Assembly (NCBI RefSeq): GCF_001592755.1
Contig: NZ_LUKF01000002.1
Location: 1-64,000 of the forward strand
Direction of reading: 5' to 3'
Length of the DNA stretch: 64,000 nucleotides
Source: Bdellovibrio bacteriovorus
GTDB lineage: Bacteria > Bdellovibrionota > Bdellovibrionia > Bdellovibrionales > Bdellovibrionaceae
How positions within the stretch are numbered: position 1 is the stretch's first letter; each line of letters starts with the position of its first letter. Position numbers and translations under genes: made by a program. This document shows, piece after piece, positions 3,214 to 63,145 of this stretch. A model generated the notes under the pieces. That model saw nothing but the letters and a program-made list of their open reading frames with translations. It was not told where the DNA came from and ran no database searches.

Positions 3214-6200
3214 CGGAAGCTTCCTTGTGAACGATCTAACTCAATCGGAGAAATACGTGTCTTATTGGCAAACATCGCAATCAAGCCGCTGGCGTAATCC
3301 ATGTTTTTCTTAGGATCACCCAAAGTATTTGAGAAATACTCTAAGTCCCCGTCTTCATCACCACTGCGGAAACCATTGATACGAACAAAGAAGACGTAGT
3401 TTTCTTCACCTAAGAACTTTAAAAGCTGTGGAAGAGGAATTTCTTCTTCCAAGATATAAAGAACATTCGTCATCCACTGCGTCTGAGACTTTTTGTCTTT
3501 AGGATAACTAGCCGAAGCCTTCAAAAGCTTTTCCATCCAAGGAATCATACAGTCGTAGTTTGTGCCATTGAGCCAAGCTGATGTCGGTGTGTTCTGCGCG
3601 CTGTCGTTCTTGCCGCCACCATGACGATTTTCATGGTACTCGTAGCAGGCTGCCATATAACGATTCTTACCGGCGTTGTAGTTGCCATTGCCTAGAACTT
3701 TCAACATGTCGTCGAACATTTCTTTATCGTTAGCGCGCGCCTTACGGCCCATTTTTTCACTGAGCCTTTGGAAAACGCCGCTGATAAATTTCGAACGTTT
3801 GACGGACTTTCCATTCGCATCTGGTTGAAGAATCAAATCACGCACTTTATCTAGGCCACCCGGCAAGATCGAAAGATTCGCCGTGATCCGATAGAAATCC
3901 ACGGCCGTCACCGTTGAGAAAGCCTCAGGCTCGATCAAGCGGTAAGACATCAAAGGAGCTCCATTTAATTCTTGTTGCACTTCATCTAGAAGCTTGAAGA
4001 ATTTTTTGCGGTTTAAATGCCATCCACCCCACACGTGTTGAATCACGGCAACGGAAGGATATTGAGTGCCCTTCACCGTCAGATCGGCCTCTGTAGTGAC
4101 TGTTCTCCAGTAAGCTTTACCGAAAGGAGTATTGGCTGGATTTGGATCGTTCGATTCGGCCAAATCAATTCGGTTGTCAGGCTTCCACTTATTTAAAATC
4201 CCTTTGATCCAGTCTGTTGCGAAACCTAAAAGATCACGGCCTTTCAATTCGCCGCGCTTATTAGCAAACAGAGTCACTTCAGATTCTTTTGGATCTAAAT
4301 CGGGAGCTTCTGAAGAACGTGGGTAACGGATTTTCAAAAGATGATCTTCCGTGAAAGAATTCATGCGGATCGCAAAAACCTTCGTACGCATCTCTTTTGT
4401 TTTAAGTTGGTGGTCTATCTCAAACTTCTTGTGTGCAAAGTTCGCATAGAGAAGTTCCGGGTCATTGCTCTTAAATAAAGAACGCAAAGCCGGCTTTAAG
4501 TTATTACGAGTAGCTAAAAAGTCTTTCACGAATTTCGCATCTGCATTTTCAGTATCTAGAAGCTCTGCGTATTCTGGATTGTAATCAATGACGAAAGCAT
4601 CTGTATTAAGATCTGTCCACGTCGTGCTTGCGCGAACACGCATCAAGTTAATGAAGTAGTTCACGTCTAAGCTCATTCCCAAGGCACTGGCCTTTTGGTT
4701 ACGAACGTAAACTTGAATGCCTTCTTTCGTACGCATAAAGCTTGTTTGGCGAAGAATCGCGCGCGAGCCATCCGCACCAACAGAGATGGAGTTAATAAAG
4801 CTGAGCGGCGTGATTCCCATCAAAACATCTAAAGACGATGTCAATTGCGCGTAAGCCGAGAGCGCTACGGAGTCCGTGATCGTGAATACTTCACCCTCAC
4901 GAAGCTCTGCCAAGAAAGCGTCTAGAGGCTGCTGCTTCTTGCCATCTTCCGAAGTGATAAGGTCTTTTTCCGCTAAGACTTTAGAAAGATTGTTCATGTA
5001 ACGGGGAAGCAAGATATTCTTCCAAGGTACTTTGGCGCCTTCGGTGATGGAAAGAAGAGGACGAACGTGAGTGTAATCGCGCATCACCATCACATTGGCA
5101 CCCGCAAAAGGCACCACATCAGGAACGCCATCCAAAGTCATGAAGTAACCTAAACGACCCGCAACACTCATATTGTCGACAAGCTGAATCGCCGCCGAAC
5201 TTCCATAGTACGTGCCTGTAGAAACGTGGCGAGTCGCCGCTAAATTAAATCCACCGACAGGTCCACCCCAAGCTTCCACCTGTTGGTAAAGAGGCTCGTT
5301 CGGTTTTGTGCGGATGTGATCCATGATACGATTGGTGATCTCTTCACGGCGGTTGGCATAAAGGTCATTCACCTTAAGTAAATCCAACTTCTCATTCAAG
5401 TAGTTGATCACAGTTCCAATGGCCATGGTTTTAGAACGGATCCCCAGGTAACGCTCAAGATCGCCATCCTGGAATGGTGATTGACGGTCCCCGTGCGCAA
5501 AACGTTGCGGGTAACCTGGAACGAATTCCTTCATCACTTTTCCATTTTGGATCAATCCACTTTTCGTCGTGATATCCAAACGAGGCAAAGTCCAGTTCGC
5601 CGCCCCTTTTAGATTGAAAAGCTCTAAAGCATTGTGAGCACGGTGAATCAGTTTTGCTAAAACAAGTTCTTCCAATTCAGCAGGAAAAGCTCCGGCTTTC
5701 ACGATGTCTTGGAAATCTTGATAACGAAGCTGCGCCAAACGACGAACCAACCAACGAGCATCTTCGTAGGTACATGCCGAAAAAGATTCCGCCGAAGGAT
5801 GCGTCAACACCACGTGACCGGAAAGAACCGAACCCAACTTCGGAGAGAAACGATTGATACTTTCAGGAACATCCACCAAAGAGAATGGAAGAATCAACGC
5901 ACGGTAAGCACGGTAACGAGAAAATCTTTGCACCGTCGGCAACTGATCTGGATTGTTTGGATCTGGAGCATAACCCCATTGAATATCGAAGTACTCCGCA
6001 ACAGCAGGCTCAAGAACCGCGTCAGAGAAAACCACGCTGTGATTTGTTTTGTTATTTTCAGTGACCCATCCCCGACTTTCAAAGTCAGAGATCATGGATT
6101 CTTGGGCGTTCTTTAAGAAAGCTTCTTTTTCTTCTTCACTCGCGAACTGAACGCGCAGGTTGCGATAATACTTTGGAGACGGAACGTAATAACCGAGTTT

Positions 6201-27435: not shown

Positions 27436-27679
27436 ATTTCCAAAACGAACCGCGCTGAACAACAAAAAACATCTTCCGTTTTCATCTCAACATCTCCGTT
27501 AAGCCTTTCAACATCGACCACCCTAGCTTTCATTTTTCCAATTCCAAGAACACGAATTAAAATTCGTTCAAGCTTCAAATCCACAACCAATAAAAACGCG
27601 CTGACCAACTAGTCAAATAAGCAATCTCAATCAAACAATCTTCAAGAGCTTTCGAAGCGATGACATTTGCATCAGCACA
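27436..27679. other. Noncoding stretch between rodA and the REP-like element
   Basis: No convincing gene. The plus strand is C/A-rich and G-poor, continuing the unusual composition of the rodA 3' end. Minus-strand frames at 27387-27608 (73 codons) and in 27575-27922 read as weakly protein-like (for example LLVVDLKLERILIRVLGIGKM) but are in different frames, and one runs through the palindrome, so any gene here would be decayed. Confidence 0.5.
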
Positions 27680-27836
27680 GCTTTGGGTTGTGGGAGGGGC
27701 TTGCTGGATGTCGTCCGAAGCGAGGCCTTCGCCGGCGCAGGATGCGCGAACCGCACAAAGTGCGGCGGCGATTGAGCCCGGATGGCGTGCCTCGCGAAGA
27801 GACGATAGCCAGCAAGCCCCTCCCACAACCCAAAGC
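27680..27836. repeat. 157-bp palindromic REP-like (BIME or MITE-like) element
   Basis: The ends are exact 28-bp inverted repeats (27680-27707 and 27809-27836) containing TTGTGGGAGGGGCTTGC. This resembles the REP repeats common in Pseudomonas, in my recollection. Inside, pairing continues imperfectly (TCGTC and GCGAGGC at 27711-27726 pair with 27789-27806), and two small hairpins stand out: GCGCA-GGA-TGCGC (27735-27747) and CCGCAC-AAA-GTGCGG (27751-27765). The GC content is far above that of the flanks. No transposase is present. A structured RNA is an alternative. Confidence 0.75.
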
Positions 27837-28080
27837 CGTCGCCCGAAGCGAACCCCACGGCAAACGAAGCGTCTCACCAAGAACGCCTCGAAAAGAGAAT
27901 TCGTCCTAGAACGACTAACCAATGATCAGACACCGTCAACACATTGGTTGACACCCCTCTAAGCCAGCTCAAACCAATCAACTCTAATAGGTGCTTCATT
28001 CTAAGAACCCAAGAAAAACAAAAGCTTACACCGACGGCATGACCCTTGAACTTACCTACTTACATCAGGAGGTAGCGGTT
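27837..28080. other. Noncoding region upstream of the Slt gene
   Basis: No gene seen. It contains an 8-bp inverted repeat AACCAATG / CATTGGTT (27917-27924 and 27942-27949), with a nested GTCAAC / GTTGAC (27936-27941 and 27947-27952). It must hold the promoter of the transglycosylase gene, whose AGGAGG ribosome-binding site lies just before 28081, but I cannot place a convincing -10/-35 pair. Confidence 0.4.
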
Positions 28081-28800: not shown

Positions 28801-28810
28801 TGTTCTAACT

Positions 28811-28838
28811 TAGGAGAGAAAAGCGGTTTTCTCTCCTA
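28811..28838 (+). terminator. Terminator of the Slt gene
   Basis: Perfect 12-bp stem TAGGAGAGAAAA / TTTTCTCTCCTA with loop GCGG, then TTTTT five bases on. Confidence 0.8.
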
Positions 28839-28875
28839 ATACTTTTTGAAAATTTCCATTTTTCATACGCACCAA

Positions 28876-28905
28876 TTAAGTACGGAAACATTAAATTTAA
28901 GTACG
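28876..28905 (+). promoter_or_regulatory. Direct repeats TTAAGTACG, probable regulator-binding sites
   Basis: Two exact copies (28876-28884 and 28897-28905) start 21 bp apart, two helical turns, 73-102 bp upstream of the acyltransferase-like gene. Tandem same-face repeats of this kind are typical of response-regulator or other dimeric activator sites. No regulator gene is adjacent. Confidence 0.5.
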
Positions 28906-28977: not shown

Positions 28978-29652
28978 ATGAAGTATCAGTACTATCTGTT
29001 CAACCCGCGCATCTTGACTGACGAAACAGCGAAACTCACCAATCAGGTATATGAAACTTGGAAACAAGTTTATGACGGAATCTTTGAGTCTTTGCACACG
29101 GATGACTTCTATCGCAATGAGGTCATCACCTGCCTAAAAGATATGGAAACGGACGAGGTCTTAGCCTTCCATATGTACAGCGTGTTCGACGATCGCGCGA
29201 GCTCGCACTTAGAACATCGATATATGGAGCCCTTCACGCCTGAACTTGTTAAAAAGTTTCAGGCCGAAGGAGCCCACACCTATATGTCGCTGGAGTACTT
29301 GGGAGTGAACACCTCCTATCAACTCAGCAAGCCGGGCTTTAAAGTCGCTGACATCATTAGCGCCTTAAGTATGAAAGCTTTTGAGGCCTCACCATGGGAT
29401 GGCCTGCTCGCCGTCGCCCGCATGGATTATAAAATTCATGAAAAAGCCCAGCGCTTCGGTATGCGTCCGATGGGAGAAATCATGCGCGGGAAATACCCGT
29501 GTCAGCTATTGTTCCTTAAAAAACACGAAACCAAAGAACTTTCGGATCCTTTTTTAGCCAAAATGGTGACCGAGCTTTGGAATGCAAAAATCAACTACAC
29601 TGATCTCATCAGTGATCAGCCTGTTAAAAAACGCCATTTAAAAATTGCTTAG
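28978..29652 (+). CDS. GNAT/FeeM/LuxI-like acyltransferase candidate, 224 aa
   Basis: The sequence has no signal peptide or membrane helix. The C-terminal half reads like an acyl-CoA N-acyltransferase core: a beta strand (TYMSLEYLGVNTSYQ, 101-115), a loop and helix (FKVADIISALSMKAFEASP, 121-139), a strand (WDGLLAVAR), helix and GMRPMGE, then a last strand (CQLLFLKK). That order matches GNAT beta4-alpha3-beta5-alpha4-beta6, as also used by N-acyl amino acid synthases and LuxI-type autoinducer synthases. I see no exact family signature, so the call is tentative. Start ATG 28978 is favoured; the longer frame from 28846 crosses the direct repeats. The diiron gene follows after 32 bp, probably co-transcribed. 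Confidence 0.82.
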   Translation: MKYQYYLFNPRILTDETAKLTNQVYETWKQVYDGIFESLHTDDFYRNEVITCLKDMETDEVLAFHMYSVFDDRASSHLEHRYMEPFTPELVKKFQAEGAHTYMSLEYLGVNTSYQLSKPGFKVADIISALSMKAFEASPWDGLLAVARMDYKIHEKAQRFGMRPMGEIMRGKYPCQLLFLKKHETKELSDPFLAKMVTELWNAKINYTDLISDQPVKKRHLKIA

Positions 29653-29684
29653 TTATTTTTCAACTTAAACCAAATGAGGGACGT

Positions 29685-30329
29685 ATGGAGAAAAAACAGT
29701 TAGCTACGATCATGGATCGCGAAATCAAAGCCTTGGGTGACAAAATCATGGACTGCCCGTGGGATAATCCAGAGTTTTATAAAAACTGGTTAGCGCAGAC
29801 TTATTATCTGATTCGCCACACGACAAAATTTTTAGCTCTGTCGGCAGCTCGCCTTCCAGTGGATGATCGGGATCACCACTATGCCATGCTTCATCACATC
29901 CAAGAGGAGCTGAACCATGACTTCATGCCTTTAAAGGATTTAGAAAACATGGGCGGTAAACTTGCACAGTATCCCGAACTGCCAGAGACTGAAATGATTC
30001 GTCAATTGCAGTATTATTGGATCGAGTTTGAAAATCCACTTTCGCTCTGCGGGTATGCTTTCTTACTTGAAGGGGCGGCCAAATTTCATGGACCGCAGCT
30101 TTTAGAGGTGCTTGAGAAACACTACGGAAAAAAAGCGACGGTGCACTTAAGAGTGCATGCGGTCGTCGATCAGGATCACTATGAAGAGGGTCAGAAATTC
30201 TTAGAGCTATTAAGCGAAAAAGACTGCGACTATATCGCGAAGAACATGCTGCAATCGGCGGTTCTTTACTCTCGCATGGTGGAAAGAATGGCAGAGCAAT
30301 GTAAATCGAAAGCGCGTAAAGCGGCTTAA
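29685..30329 (+). CDS. Heme-oxygenase-like diiron oxidase (HDO; iron-containing redox enzyme family), 214 aa
   Basis: An all-helical protein with the six metal ligands expected for HDO-fold enzymes: Glu75 and His78 in QEELNHD, Glu129 in FLLEGAA, and His158-x3-Asp162-x2-His165 in HAVVDQDH. The HxxxDxxH spacing is that of CADD- and UndA-type enzymes, which activate dioxygen on a diiron centre for C-C or N-oxygenation or decarboxylation chemistry. This separates it from heme-binding heme oxygenase and from TenA/PqqC, which lack the set. The partner is the upstream acyltransferase-like protein. The substrate is unknown. Strong terminator downstream. Confidence 0.9.
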   Translation: MEKKQLATIMDREIKALGDKIMDCPWDNPEFYKNWLAQTYYLIRHTTKFLALSAARLPVDDRDHHYAMLHHIQEELNHDFMPLKDLENMGGKLAQYPELPETEMIRQLQYYWIEFENPLSLCGYAFLLEGAAKFHGPQLLEVLEKHYGKKATVHLRVHAVVDQDHYEEGQKFLELLSEKDCDYIAKNMLQSAVLYSRMVERMAEQCKSKARKAA

Positions 30330-30353: not shown

Positions 30354-30378
30354 AAAAGGCACCCATCGGGTGCCTTTT
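30354..30378. terminator. Bidirectional terminator between convergent genes
   Basis: Perfect 11-bp stem AAAAGGCACCC / GGGTGCCTTTT with loop ATC, ending both the diiron gene (plus) and the 30403 gene (minus). Confidence 0.92.
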
Positions 30379-30402: not shown

Positions 30403-31074
30403 CTAGTTGTTAACGGGTTCTGCGGTCTCAATCACCAACAAACCTTCAACACGTCTGTTGCGCTTCAAAGGACTGATCAACTTCACTTGTTGCATGAATG
30501 ATTGTCCGTCTTCTTTCACTTCTTTTAGAAGATGCGGCTCGATATCAGGAGTATAGCTATCAGGAATTTCACCTGTGGCTACTTTGACACCCAGATCGAA
30601 AATCTTCATCGTCATTGCAGCATTGCGCTCGTAAAGATTCCACCACTCGACAGAGTAAAGTTCTTCCAAAGTGTAAGAGCAGCATTCAAAGAATTTGAAA
30701 TTGCGATAAAGCTGTTTGTTATCCACCGAATAGATCTCGACAAGATTTTCATCCGTCATGTGATTGAAAACATCTGCGCGCGGAACGAAGTCCAGTTTAC
30801 GGAAAGCTCTCCACACGAAGCTCGAGTTGTCCTTCAACTTGTAACCTTCAGCAATTTGTTCTTCGCAAAGTTCTTTGAAGAAAGTGATGCTAGTCACGAT
30901 CTCTTGCATTTTTTCGTAAGAGCATGCTCGGAAATGAGGCAACCCATCGATATAGGGTTTTCTGTAGACTCCTTCAGTAGCAAACATCATACAGATTTTT
31001 TGAGATGCAGCTTTGAACTTCTCAACGAGTAAAGCCACATCTTGCTGGCGAACTTCAACAACTTCAATAGACAT
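30403..31074 (-). CDS. Unknown cytoplasmic protein, 223 aa, paralogue of the 62072-62728 protein
   Basis: ATG 31074, with AGGGG upstream, is preferred over 31089. No signal or membrane helix. It is clearly related along its length to the protein at 62072-62728. Shared blocks include KFKxxSxxxC...EGxxxxPYxxxxLPxFR in the first third, SxFVRKA/WRA, LxEIYxxxNxQLxRxFxxFxxxSYTxEExY and W-x-LYER in the middle, and an acidic E-P-H-L-L/E-E-H-L-L segment near the end. I recognise no domain; it may be a sensory or signalling fold, being rich in aromatic and Cys residues. The convergent gene upstream of its terminator is the diiron oxidase. Confidence 0.86.
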   Translation of the reverse strand: MSIEVVEVRQQDVALLVEKFKAASQKICMMFATEGVYRKPYIDGLPHFRACSYEKMQEIVTSITFFKELCEEQIAEGYKLKDNSSFVWRAFRKLDFVPRADVFNHMTDENLVEIYSVDNKQLYRNFKFFECCSYTLEELYSVEWWNLYERNAAMTMKIFDLGVKVATGEIPDSYTPDIEPHLLKEVKEDGQSFMQQVKLISPLKRNRRVEGLLVIETAEPVNN

Positions 31075-31224
31075 TTCTAACCCCTGCATACTCTCACCTT
31101 ATGTGAGTACTTCAAAGATAGCCAGCATTTTGCCTTTTGTCCAATTGGACGGCTCAGCAAGTTAAATCTTACCAAGATGCAATGGTTGCGGACATTAGGG
31201 GAAATTTAACGAGGTTTTAACATA

Positions 31225-59277: not shown

Positions 59278-62075
59278 TGCTTCCTGCAAAGACTCTCTTG
59301 TCTCTTTTAGTCTTAATTCTTCTATGTACGTCGTCCCTAGCTCAAGCTAAGAAAAATCTTCGCTATGACACGCTTCCGGCCGAGGTTCAATCCGATCTGG
59401 TTAAAAGATTCCCGCAGATTGAAAAAGAGGCCCTGAATTTAGAACAACTCGACGAAGTGATTCGTTATCTTCAGTTGAAGCCCGAGTTTGAAAACGTTCG
59501 GATTTTAGATGATGGCAACGGCTCCCCTTACCGTCTGGATTTTCAGCGCACCCGAATTATTTCAAAAGTCTCGATTGATGGAATTTCAAATATTTCTGAA
59601 AGCGAGGCTGGAAGCACTTTTGGTGTGAAAGCCGGTGACGTCTTTGATCAACAGAATCTGATTGAAGGCGCGGAAAAGATTCGTCAGCTTTATGCCGAGC
59701 GTGGCTACCTAAATGCGGTGGTCGATATCGCGATGCCACCAGAAGGTGCCGACCAAGTTGGTGTTGAAATCAAAGTCACTGAAAACAAACAGACGCGCGT
59801 ACGAAATATTCTTATTCAAAGTTCGAATGAAGCACTCAATCGTGAGCTTTCAAAACATCTTAAAGGCTTTCATAAAGATCCTTTTACCGATGCGACTTTA
59901 AATGAGATTCAAAAAGACGCCAGAGACTATTTGAAAGAAAAGCGTTATGTGCGCGCAGATCTCAGCGGACCGACTACGGATTTTAGTTCGGATGAGTCTG
60001 AAGTTTCTTTGATTTATCGGGTGGAAAAAACCGAGCGCTATACATTTGAGTATGAAGGTGTTCGTCTTTTAGGGACTCGCGAAATTGAAAAAGCCTTGGA
60101 CCTGGATAACTACTATTCAGCAAGTCCCACCATTGGTTCGGAGCTCGCGCAAAAGATTCGCAACTATTATCTCTCTAAAGGGCATGCCCGTGCGGAAGTG
60201 CGTGCGGAAGAACATGAAGGCCGTGATCCTCTTCATCGTCGTATCGTCTTTAAAATCGATGAAGGTCCGCAGATTAAGATTCAAGCCGTAAATATCACGG
60301 GACGTATTAGCAAGCGCCCAAGATACTATGTGAATTTCATTGAAGAGCACAGTTCTAAAGTCGTCGACAAGGGTCTTTATAATAAGGAAGATTTCGACAC
60401 CGGTGTACAGAATCTGATTTTGGAGTTGCAAAACAATGGTTACTTGCAAGCCAAACTGATCTCGACTCGCACACAATACAACCGAGAACGCGACGCCGTC
60501 ACTTTGCATGTCAACTTAGATGAAGGACCACTGACTCAGATTGAAGAAGTGGATTTTAGCGGGAATAAAGACTTCTCTGACGAGGAACTTGTCGGCGTCA
60601 CCGGCTTAAAGCCCGGAGCTTTACGCTTAGGACAAATTGAAACCGCCATTGCTCGCCTGAAAGAGTTTTATCACGACCGCGGTTATATTGAGATGCTGCT
60701 GTTAAATGAAAAGCAGGATCTGGTGACTTACGACGAAACGAACACCAAGGCCTCTTTGCATTTTAAAATTTTAGAAGGCCCGCAAGTCCGTGTGGCCTCC
60801 ATTGTTCTTGAAGGCAACACCTTTACGAAAGACTACGTTCTGTTAAAAGAACTGGAGTTTGCTGAAGGCGATCTGGTCACACCTTATAAGGTCCAAGAAT
60901 CTGTCGCCCGCTTGCAAAGAACAGGTTTTTTTGGCACCGTCGACATCCGCACTTTGGAAGAAAAAACCAATGTTGCCAACCGCACCGTGGTTGTCAAAGT
61001 CACCGAGCGTGATCCAGGTCTTTTGACCTTTGGGGCCGGCGCCACGAATGAACGAAAACTGACTTTACGTGGATATGCTGGGGTCGCTTATCGCAACATC
61101 ATGGGCACCGGTCGTGGAGCTTCGTTGCGCTTAGAGGGTAACTACAACATCGCAGATCTGAAGTACCTTGAGCACAAAGTGGTCTTCGGATATCTGGAGC
61201 CTTATCTTTTCGGAACGCGTTTACGCGGTCGTATTAACATCACTCGCTCTACCACAGTGACAGACTATGAAATCCATCAGGCTTCTGAAGTGAACTCGAC
61301 GACTTATTCTGTCGAAAAAGACTTCACGTCTCACGTCCTAGGTGTTTGGGATATCTGGTCCTTGGCAACAATCCGCGACTTCGGTATCGACGACGTCTAC
61401 CCGTTCCCTGAAGATGAACAGAACATCGCGACGACGGGACCTACTCTTGATTTAGATTTCCGTGACAATCCTTTCAACCCGACAAAAGGAAATTTCACGC
61501 GTTGGAATGCCGAGTATTCAGCCCCTTTCATGGGCAGCACAGGCACCATAGAATACTGGAAGACGACCTTAAGCTTCACTCACTATGCCTCTGTTTTTGA
61601 ATTGCAAAAGCAACCTGTTGTTTGGGCGAATCAAGTGCGTGGTGGTTATATCAAAAATCTTAGCACGCGTGATGATGGCGGAGTCCCCTGGGATAAAAAA
61701 GGTTTTACTCTTGGAGGCCAATCCACCATTCGCGGTTATGAAGCCGGAACCCAAGAAGTCTTCCCGAACCGTGAGGACTTGGGACTTTCTGAAAGTGAAA
61801 AGACGTACTATTTAAAAACGGAAGCCGTCATGTATCTGGTCAAATCAGAAGTGCGTTTCCCCGTTTATGGAAACTTGGGTGGCGCCGTATTTTACGACGG
61901 CGGTTACGTGAAGATTCAAGATTTGAGTTTTGAAGATTACTATCGTGACTCTGCAGGATTCGGTATCCGCTACAACACTCCAGTAGGTCCTTTAAGTCTG
62001 GAATGGGCGTGGAAACTGGATGCGCGCCCTAGCGAAGAGCCTTGGCGCTTCCATCTATCCATCGGGACTTTCTAA
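59277..62075 (+). CDS. TamA/BamA-type Omp85 protein with about six POTRA domains, 932 aa
   Basis: Outer-membrane assembly partner of TamB. A signal peptide (about 1-24, ending SLAQA) is followed by six POTRA-like units at about 80-160, 165-245, 250-330, 332-415, 417-500 and 501-580, each beginning with a beta strand such as ISKVSIDGI or QIEEVDFSGN and ending in DEGP- or EGPQ-type turns. The C-terminal 350 residues form the 16-strand barrel, ending in HLSIGTF with terminal Phe. TamA usually has three POTRA and BamA five; six is unusual. TamB linkage (ATG overlaps stop by 1 bp) favours a TamA role; BamA cannot be excluded. The barrel contains the expected RGYE segment (IRGYEAGTQE). Confidence 0.92.
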   Translation: MLPAKTLLSLLVLILLCTSSLAQAKKNLRYDTLPAEVQSDLVKRFPQIEKEALNLEQLDEVIRYLQLKPEFENVRILDDGNGSPYRLDFQRTRIISKVSIDGISNISESEAGSTFGVKAGDVFDQQNLIEGAEKIRQLYAERGYLNAVVDIAMPPEGADQVGVEIKVTENKQTRVRNILIQSSNEALNRELSKHLKGFHKDPFTDATLNEIQKDARDYLKEKRYVRADLSGPTTDFSSDESEVSLIYRVEKTERYTFEYEGVRLLGTREIEKALDLDNYYSASPTIGSELAQKIRNYYLSKGHARAEVRAEEHEGRDPLHRRIVFKIDEGPQIKIQAVNITGRISKRPRYYVNFIEEHSSKVVDKGLYNKEDFDTGVQNLILELQNNGYLQAKLISTRTQYNRERDAVTLHVNLDEGPLTQIEEVDFSGNKDFSDEELVGVTGLKPGALRLGQIETAIARLKEFYHDRGYIEMLLLNEKQDLVTYDETNTKASLHFKILEGPQVRVASIVLEGNTFTKDYVLLKELEFAEGDLVTPYKVQESVARLQRTGFFGTVDIRTLEEKTNVANRTVVVKVTERDPGLLTFGAGATNERKLTLRGYAGVAYRNIMGTGRGASLRLEGNYNIADLKYLEHKVVFGYLEPYLFGTRLRGRINITRSTTVTDYEIHQASEVNSTTYSVEKDFTSHVLGVWDIWSLATIRDFGIDDVYPFPEDEQNIATTGPTLDLDFRDNPFNPTKGNFTRWNAEYSAPFMGSTGTIEYWKTTLSFTHYASVFELQKQPVVWANQVRGGYIKNLSTRDDGGVPWDKKGFTLGGQSTIRGYEAGTQEVFPNREDLGLSESEKTYYLKTEAVMYLVKSEVRFPVYGNLGGAVFYDGGYVKIQDLSFEDYYRDSAGFGIRYNTPVGPLSLEWAWKLDARPSEEPWRFHLSIGTF

Positions 62076-62728
62076 TTTAAAATGGGCTTGCAACGGGCAA
62101 CAACCAGATAGGCATCGGTTTTGCCCTCTTTCAAAAGTGGCAATGCGTACAACACGCGAACGCTGACGGCCAACCTTTCCAAAGAAGCTTTTTCAATCAG
62201 AAGATGCTCTTCCACGTCGATTTCCATGCTTTTCTTTTCGCCTGTAATAATCGAGGTCAATGTGGTGACAAGCTTAGCCGTCACCTGCGGATCCCGCTCA
62301 TACAAGTGAATCCAGGGACGCGTATAAATATCCTCAACTGTGTAGCTAGCGTATTGGAAATAACTGAAAGTTCTAAAAAGTTGGATGTTGGCCAGATTAT
62401 AGATTTCGGTCAGGTACTCGTCTTGAATCAACTCCAAAACTTTTGCATCGTACTGGTAACCGTAAAACTCCAAGGCCTTCCTTACAAATAGTGAGGCATC
62501 CTTGATTTTGCCGCCCGCTTCGTGAACGGAATCGCAAATCTTGATGTAGTTTTCAAGATTTTCAACCGCACTTTGCTGCTCAGCTTCAGAAAGCTGACGG
62601 AAGTACGGCAAAGAATCCTGGCTGTAAGGGCGAATCACGAAGCCCTCTTGTTCAATAAGCTCACATAATTCTTCACTAAGAACTTTGAATTTGGCGATGG
62701 TGGTAGATGACGCTTGTAATGAATCCAT
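62072..62728 (-). CDS. Unknown cytoplasmic protein, about 218 aa, paralogue of the 30403-31074 protein
   Basis: Convergent with and overlapping the Omp85 gene's last 4 bp. ATG 62728 is chosen; an earlier start at 62779 lies inside a terminator and is rejected. It shares the blocks EGFVIRPYSQDSLPYFR, SLFVRKA, LTEIYNLANIQLFRTFSYFQYASYTVEDIY, WIHLYERDP and VEEHLL with the 30403 protein. No domain recognised. The local duplication, 31 kb apart, indicates a family active in this lineage. Confidence 0.85.
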   Translation of the reverse strand: MDSLQASSTTIAKFKVLSEELCELIEQEGFVIRPYSQDSLPYFRQLSEAEQQSAVENLENYIKICDSVHEAGGKIKDASLFVRKALEFYGYQYDAKVLELIQDEYLTEIYNLANIQLFRTFSYFQYASYTVEDIYTRPWIHLYERDPQVTAKLVTTLTSIITGEKKSMEIDVEEHLLIEKASLERLAVSVRVLYALPLLKEGKTDAYLVVARCKPILN

Positions 62729-62767
62729 ACAGAACGAACCAGAATCTATCGTAAACGACTTTAAAAG

Positions 62768-62793
62768 AAAAGACCCCATGCGCGGGGTCTTTT
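62768..62793 (-). terminator. Terminator of the XRE gene
   Basis: Perfect 10-bp stem AAAAGACCCC / GGGGTCTTTT with a 6-nt loop, 31 bp after the XRE stop. Confidence 0.88.
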
Positions 62794-62824
62794 TATCACT
62801 AACAAAACTTTAAAAAAAGAATTC

Positions 62825-63103
62825 TTAGCGCGCTTTGCTGCCCGCGAATTTGCGGCGTAGATCTTGAGTAACCTCTTGAATAGTTGCATTCAAAGTCACT
62901 TCGAAAAGATCGTCAGCAGACACTTTGTAAAGCTCGCCCAATTTTTTAAGAGCGTTGATTGGTGGGTGAGAAACACCACGTTCCCAGTTCGAGATAAATT
63001 GAGGAGTAGAGTATCCCAATTTATCTGCCACATCTCTTTGAGAAAGCCCTGCCGATACACGTTTTTGTTTTAGAAAGTCTGCAAGCATATTTTTTTGTCT
63101 CAT
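62825..63103 (-). CDS. XRE-family helix-turn-helix transcriptional regulator, 92 aa
   Basis: ATG 63103 with an AGGTGG site; the frame from 63139 has no support. The HTH_3 domain reads FLKQKRVSAGLSQRDVADKLGYSTPQFISNWERGVSHPPINALKKLGELYKVSADDLFEV, a Cro/CI-type fold, followed by a short Arg/Lys-rich tail (TQDLRRKFAGSKAR). No effector domain, so it probably acts as a small repressor. Inverted repeats with TATACTGT at 63146-63189 are its likely autoregulatory sites. Confidence 0.93.
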   Translation of the reverse strand: MRQKNMLADFLKQKRVSAGLSQRDVADKLGYSTPQFISNWERGVSHPPINALKKLGELYKVSADDLFEVTLNATIQEVTQDLRRKFAGSKAR

Positions 63104-63145
63104 GTGATTTCCACCTAGCGATAGGATTAGCTTAAACACAAAGGA

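Follow-up and report, generated by a model that had tools for sequence, protein, structure and literature searches.

The locus examined here lies in a stretch of 64,000 nucleotides from Bdellovibrio bacteriovorus (contig NZ_LUKF01000002.1, positions 1 to 64,000), which we call the window. Two forward-strand genes, A and B, stand in tandem with 32 bp from the stop of A to the start of B, exactly at the coordinates given by a first-pass annotation made from the sequence. That annotation overlooked a third gene, C, which is convergent with B (30403-31089, reverse strand), as well as a paralogue of C paired with a small regulator gene, D (62072-63139, reverse strand). The features discussed in the text are as follows.

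28810-28839, forward: terminator-like hairpin that follows the SLT transglycosylase gene (PF01464) lying upstream and separates that gene from A
28876-28905, forward: direct repeat TTAAGTACG upstream of A, two copies, at 28876 and 28897, 21 bp apart
28978-29652, forward: gene A, 224 amino acids, putative acyl(amide) synthase with a GNAT/FeeM/LuxI-like predicted fold
29632-29649, forward: C-terminal tail of A (RHLKIA-COOH), at the low-confidence end of the A model
29685-30329, forward: gene B, 214 amino acids, predicted heme-oxygenase-like dimetal oxidase (HDO), from PF14518, ligand set, and predicted fold
30309-30326, forward: C-terminal tail of B (KARKAA-COOH), matching the tail pattern
30354-30378, no strand assigned: intrinsic terminator in the gap between the converging genes B and C; an A-run precedes it and a T-run follows
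30403-31089, reverse: gene C, 228 amino acids, putative sensor with a PAS-like C-terminal half, convergent with B
62072-62779, reverse: C paralogue, 235 amino acids, the second of the two C genes of this genome (profile match, E 1.5e-56)
62825-63139, reverse: gene D, encoding a small XRE/HTH_3 regulator, next to the C paralogue on its upstream side

The DNA that flanks A and B had been read as giving the pair its own transcript, with a private terminator and a direct-repeat operator. The stem between B and C is a genuine terminator. However, the A-run before it and the T-run after it also suit C, so the terminator could work in both directions and is shared with the convergent gene. The direct repeat upstream of A exists, but it is neither conserved nor rare: it is not intact in a relative (G008) whose A is 90% identical, and the window contains 19 exact direct repeats of 9-mers at comparable spacing. 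A role as operator is thus unsupported. Farther upstream, at 27575-27962, overlapping ORFs on opposite strands give near-identical peptides (LWVVGGACW...QQAPPTTQS on both), which indicates that a long inverted repeat lies between the transglycosylase gene and the rodA-like one.

Gene A matched no Pfam or NCBIfam family by sequence, either with the window protein or with 22 homologues. No match to Autoind_synth (PF00765) was found at E≤10 for the window protein or at E≤1 for the 22 homologues, and the A profile found no relative among PDB sequences. Identification of A by sequence as a LuxI, a FeeM, or any Pfam/NCBIfam acetyltransferase was therefore rejected, even from 22 homologues; for FeeM, this covers both the family searches and the comparison of the A profile with PDB sequences. 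Since A has no sequence match to the LuxI, FeeM, and GNAT Pfam families, any acyl donor or acceptor proposed for it is a guess.

The fold of A was predicted with AlphaFold2 from six diverse sequences. The model has a pLDDT of 89 and a pTM of 0.86, with low pLDDT over the last 11 residues (214-224). In a Foldseek search against the PDB, 193 chains matched at E≤0.001, GNATs were among the matches listed, and EsaI, RpaI, and FeeM were within the top 50. On realignment with VIA, 903 of 999 chains reached Z≥8. FeeM (2g0b) came top with Z 15.6 over 173 residues at 10% identity, and the acyl-homoserine lactone (AHL) synthases BjaI (5w8g), RpaI, MesI, and LasI scored 15.6, 15.4, 14.7, and 14.1, where rows within 1 Z count as tied. 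FeeM and the AHL synthases align over 171-191 residues of A, compared with 136-167 for most other listed GNATs. A is thus predicted with high confidence to adopt a GNAT fold that is most fully matched by members of the acyl-synthase type, which is not to say that it is a LuxI. The GNAT/FeeM/LuxI-like order of strands and helices noticed in the first-pass annotation, whose proposal depended on a GNAT-like fold, is seen in this model, and FeeM and the LuxI-type synthases are its best structural matches.

Gene B passes the Pfam model PF14518 with 43.4 bits (cut-off 28.9). The complete HDO ligand set claimed for it, E75, H78, E129, H158, D162, and H165, is exact to the residue, and none of the six columns varies in an alignment of 24 diverse homologues, in which the other members are 33-71% identical to B. 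This 3H/3C set is that of most HDOs (PMC13108848). The AlphaFold2 model of B is all-helical with a pLDDT of 90 and, together with PF14518, conforms to the seven-helix heme-oxygenase-like fold. Its VIA matches include 3dde (Z 22.3), UndA (19.7), CADD (19.6), and HrmI (19.2). Among PDB sequences, the B profile is nearest to 3dde (E 1e-18), followed by the acetylenase MboA (E 1.7e-5). The closest solved relative of B, 3dde, is a Shewanella protein of unknown function.

The two genes are neighbors well beyond this window. In single-sequence searches, 54 of 79 A places had a B no more than 300 bp away in the same orientation. Profile searches across 144 genomes of the class located A at 123 places and B at 116. 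They form 97 pairs in 82 genomes, and 97 of the 116 B places adjoin an A. Rare adjacency, which the first-pass annotation had named as grounds for rejecting the pair, is therefore not what is seen. Tandem arrangement is seen in 92 of these pairs (85 with A then B, 7 with B then A), and the remaining 5 have the genes on opposite strands. Natural A-B fusions occur in two genomes of different families, each as one ORF with no internal stops (G098, locus L063, 4920-6287, 455 amino acids; G007, locus L103, 5859-7235). Beside two seemingly unpaired B genes lie divergent proteins with 42% mutual identity, and the A profile matches one of them (2e-4). With an A-like protein beside a seemingly unpaired B, the count of A-B pairing is probably an underestimate.

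A is also found in other classes of the phylum, in 112 of 320 genomes sampled from it. A scan of genome contigs with a one-peptide pattern gave only 5 loci, all in Bdellovibrionota. With the single window sequence as query, no relatives of A were found on plasmids; the Bdellovibrio plasmid pBdHM1 bears a complete D-A-B-C set. Across the 144 genomes, A and B co-occur with a phi of 0.60, uncorrected for phylogeny. Mirror-tree correlations of A, B, and C (r 0.35-0.43) are not separated from the species phylogeny and are given no weight here.

For 39 of 46 A-B pairs, a homologue of C is found no more than 4 kb away, on either side and in varying orientation. A and C co-occur with a phi of 0.82 (88 genomes with both, 5 with A only, 7 with C only; 144 genomes, or 143 in one of the searches behind these co-occurrence values, phylogeny uncorrected). 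The A-B pair is genuine, but the two-gene unit that had been proposed is too small, since A is tied more closely to C (0.82) than to B (0.60) and B is replaceable. The C-terminal half of C gave a weak match to a PAS alignment from its own genome (hhalign E 1.6e-4, probability 51%). PAS_9 matches were found in 3 of 29 members (best E 0.005), with none for the window C alone. Together, these comparisons are suggestive of a resemblance between the C-terminal half of C and PAS domains. In the genus Bdellovibrio, there are 2-8 C genes and 1-3 A genes per genome, and this excess indicates that C also works without A. This PAS-like family is thus expanded in the genus, with up to eight C paralogues in one genome (seen across G001, G009, G011, G021, and G022).

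D belongs to the XRE/HTH_3 regulators. It scores 53.4 bits against PF01381 (cut-off 23) and carries the motif QFISNWERG, and its translation more likely begins at an internal ATG, at 63103. D homologues are near 24 of the 46 A-B pairs, and in many relatives they adjoin C and A. In this genome, which has two C genes and two D genes in total, the D of the window stands beside the second C, 32 kb from A, B, and C. This C-D pair at 62072-63139 is apart from any A or B of the genome and may be a response half of the same system.

Where loci with A but no B were inspected one gene at a time, A and C are usually kept, often with D, and another redox enzyme adjoins them. Among the 63 A genes that were looked at, B accompanies 47, a desaturase in the absence of B accompanies 8, and an FAD_binding_4 oxidase accompanies 3, in one case as a fusion with A. 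A fatty-acid desaturase (FA_desaturase, PF00487) takes the place of B in L146, L147 (twice), L148, L150, L151, and L096. The FAD_binding_4 oxidase (PF01565) does so in L144 and L095, and in L100 it forms with A a single 770-residue ORF (3565-5877, genome G275). A B12-radical SAM protein lies beside A in L145 and an FAD enzyme in L149. The enzymes of L096, L095, and L148 were assigned by profile or inspection. Six further modules contain B and a desaturase together. Separately, the genus Bdellovibrio has a solo second A paralogue (four cases, L140-L143) with no C or B neighbors and no basic tail, one of them with D nearby.

Since a desaturase or FAD oxidase takes over where B is missing, we infer that B uses O2 to oxidize the fatty-acyl moiety of the product of A. 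UndA, an HDO that acts on fatty acids, offers a precedent for such a role. The same exchange bears on a different reading of the locus, in which it would be a redox-stress module with B as an oxygen or oxidative-stress protein and A as a protein or polyamine acetyltransferase. Arylalkylamine and polyamine acetyltransferases do match the A model, and DtpC, an HDO-domain protein of Acinetobacter, has a protective role (PMC13232832). However, replacement of B by a desaturase or an FAD oxidase fits substrate tailoring better, and the FeeM and LuxI matches span more of A than ordinary GNATs do. We regard a redox-stress module as very unlikely.

The enzymes of the module also have a short C-terminal tail in common. 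In a first set, the pattern [K/R]-x-[A/V]-A ends 71% of A proteins and 63% of B proteins, compared with 4.5% of C proteins and 7.8% of 244 other genes. The enrichment over other genes (Fisher p 6e-20 for A and 8e-16 for B) is indicative only, as homologues are non-independent. In a larger set, the tail was present in 40 of 62 A proteins, 32 of 54 B proteins, 10 of 16 desaturases, and 3 of 58 C proteins. A scan of neighboring genes added further enzymes lying no more than 1 kb from A: two homologous methyltransferases (44% identical; L074 and L144) and an FAD enzyme, that of L149. The agreement between unrelated families is a stronger point for a common tail than the p-values. If non-homologous enzymes of a single pathway do carry a common tail, that would be unusual on its own, and the last four residues could be used to spot further tailoring enzymes.

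C-terminal degrons recognized by ClpX include LAA-COOH and RRKKAI-COOH (PMC7857536). The tail of the module resembles them as a short basic-plus-alanine C-terminus; it differs in that its consensus, [K/R]-x-[A/V]-A, recurs across enzymes of a single pathway. A ClpXP-type degron is the explanation that we lean toward, with slightly better than even confidence. The tail, which C mostly lacks, would then allow a quick shutdown of synthesis. A shared tag for docking or assembly of the enzymes is the alternative, and a less probable one.

The tail and the gene fusions also bear on the possibility that A alone makes a signal for C, while B and the other oxidases are neighboring functions under independent selection. 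The tighter association of A with C than with B speaks for it, as does the occurrence of A and C without B. Yet A is fused to B in two genomes and to an FAD oxidase in one, 92 of the 97 A-B pairs are in tandem, and A and B end in the common tail. That the oxidases stand outside the pathway is accordingly improbable in our estimation.

We favor, at somewhat beyond an even chance, a reading in which the locus forms the core, for both synthesis and sensing, of a modular acyl-small-molecule system, whose product would most likely be a signal used between cells or for self-sensing. First, A would move an acyl group from acyl-ACP or acyl-CoA to an amine-bearing acceptor in the manner of FeeM and LuxI-type enzymes, a reaction suggested by the predicted fold. 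Second, B would build an Fe/Fe or Fe/Mn site and use O2 for the desaturation, hydroxylation, or cleavage of the acylated product, its presumed substrate. The equivalent role would fall to a membrane fatty-acid desaturase or an FAD oxidase in the sister modules. Third, C may bind or report the product and, together with the DNA-binding XRE protein D, alter transcription. The first-pass annotation had supposed that the pair makes or modifies an acylated small molecule, possibly a signal. That the two are a biosynthetic pair working on an acylated molecule has good support, and a signal is plausible; the pair itself was an incomplete version of the unit.

A and B might instead produce a metabolite that is not a signal, such as an N-acyl lipid, a membrane component, or an anti-prey agent, with C and D as local feedback or stress regulators. 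FeeM, the fold relative of A, makes N-acyl amino acids, HDOs usually serve natural-product pathways (PMC13108848, PMC13185094), and methyltransferase and FAD enzymes are part of the module in some genomes. In the loci read, however, no recurrent transporter, NRPS, or other cluster gene was present, and the constant partners of the synthase are sensor-like and DNA-binding, as in synthase/receptor signaling systems. We consider a non-signal product rather unlikely.

If the signal reading is extended to the whole phylum, the module may tentatively be regarded as an undescribed class of acyl-signal system, widespread in Bdellovibrionota. A constant pair, the LuxI/FeeM-fold synthase and the PAS-like sensor, would work with interchangeable tailoring enzymes (HDO, membrane desaturase, FAD oxidase, and methyltransferase), giving lineage-specific chemical "dialects", and one C-terminal tag would serve the co-regulated destruction or assembly of the enzymes. 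Such a class, if real, would provide a testable candidate for cell-cell or life-cycle signaling in predatory bacteria, together with a biosynthesis module that is combinatorial by nature and a defined family of oxidized acyl products. Our literature search found no paper describing an A-B-C-D system of this kind. It also found none on HDOs with FeeM or autoinducers, although most subscription journals lay outside its coverage and an earlier description is possible.

Several known systems resemble parts of the module. A phage-defense reading was rejected: A and B have no PADLOC match, and D matches a generic HTH. In gammaproteobacteria, a compact, biosynthesis-like operon (T_hemolysin (PF12261)-AMP ligase-HDO-SDR-TPR) contains a B-related HDO, and no A, C, or D was found there. 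The HDOs of this operon are the relatives of B outside Bdellovibrionota in the plasmid collection. The operon is carried on the gammaproteobacterial plasmids L108, L109, and L111-L114, and its ligase and HDO are seemingly fused in L109 and L112. A relationship between A and T_hemolysin was rejected, as hhalign gave a probability of 0.1% and no profile similarity. With UndA, CADD, BesC, MboA, and HrmI, B shares the fold and the 3H/3C ligands; the partner genes differ. FeeM, an N-acyl amino acid synthase, is the top structural match of A, with no detectable sequence relationship.

LuxI autoinducer synthases make acyl-homoserine lactones from SAM and acyl-ACP or acyl-CoA. A differs from them in having no Autoind_synth match and in belonging to a module that includes an oxidase. 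The putative sensor C differs from LuxR in being PAS-like without a recognized DNA-binding domain, the regulator being a separate XRE protein. On the other hand, A is like the LuxI-type synthases BjaI, RpaI, MesI, LasI, and EsaI in both fold and match length (Z 14-15.6 over 171-191 residues). As in LuxI/LuxR systems, a small synthase gene lies beside a putative sensor or regulator, and the modules are diverse and paralogous.
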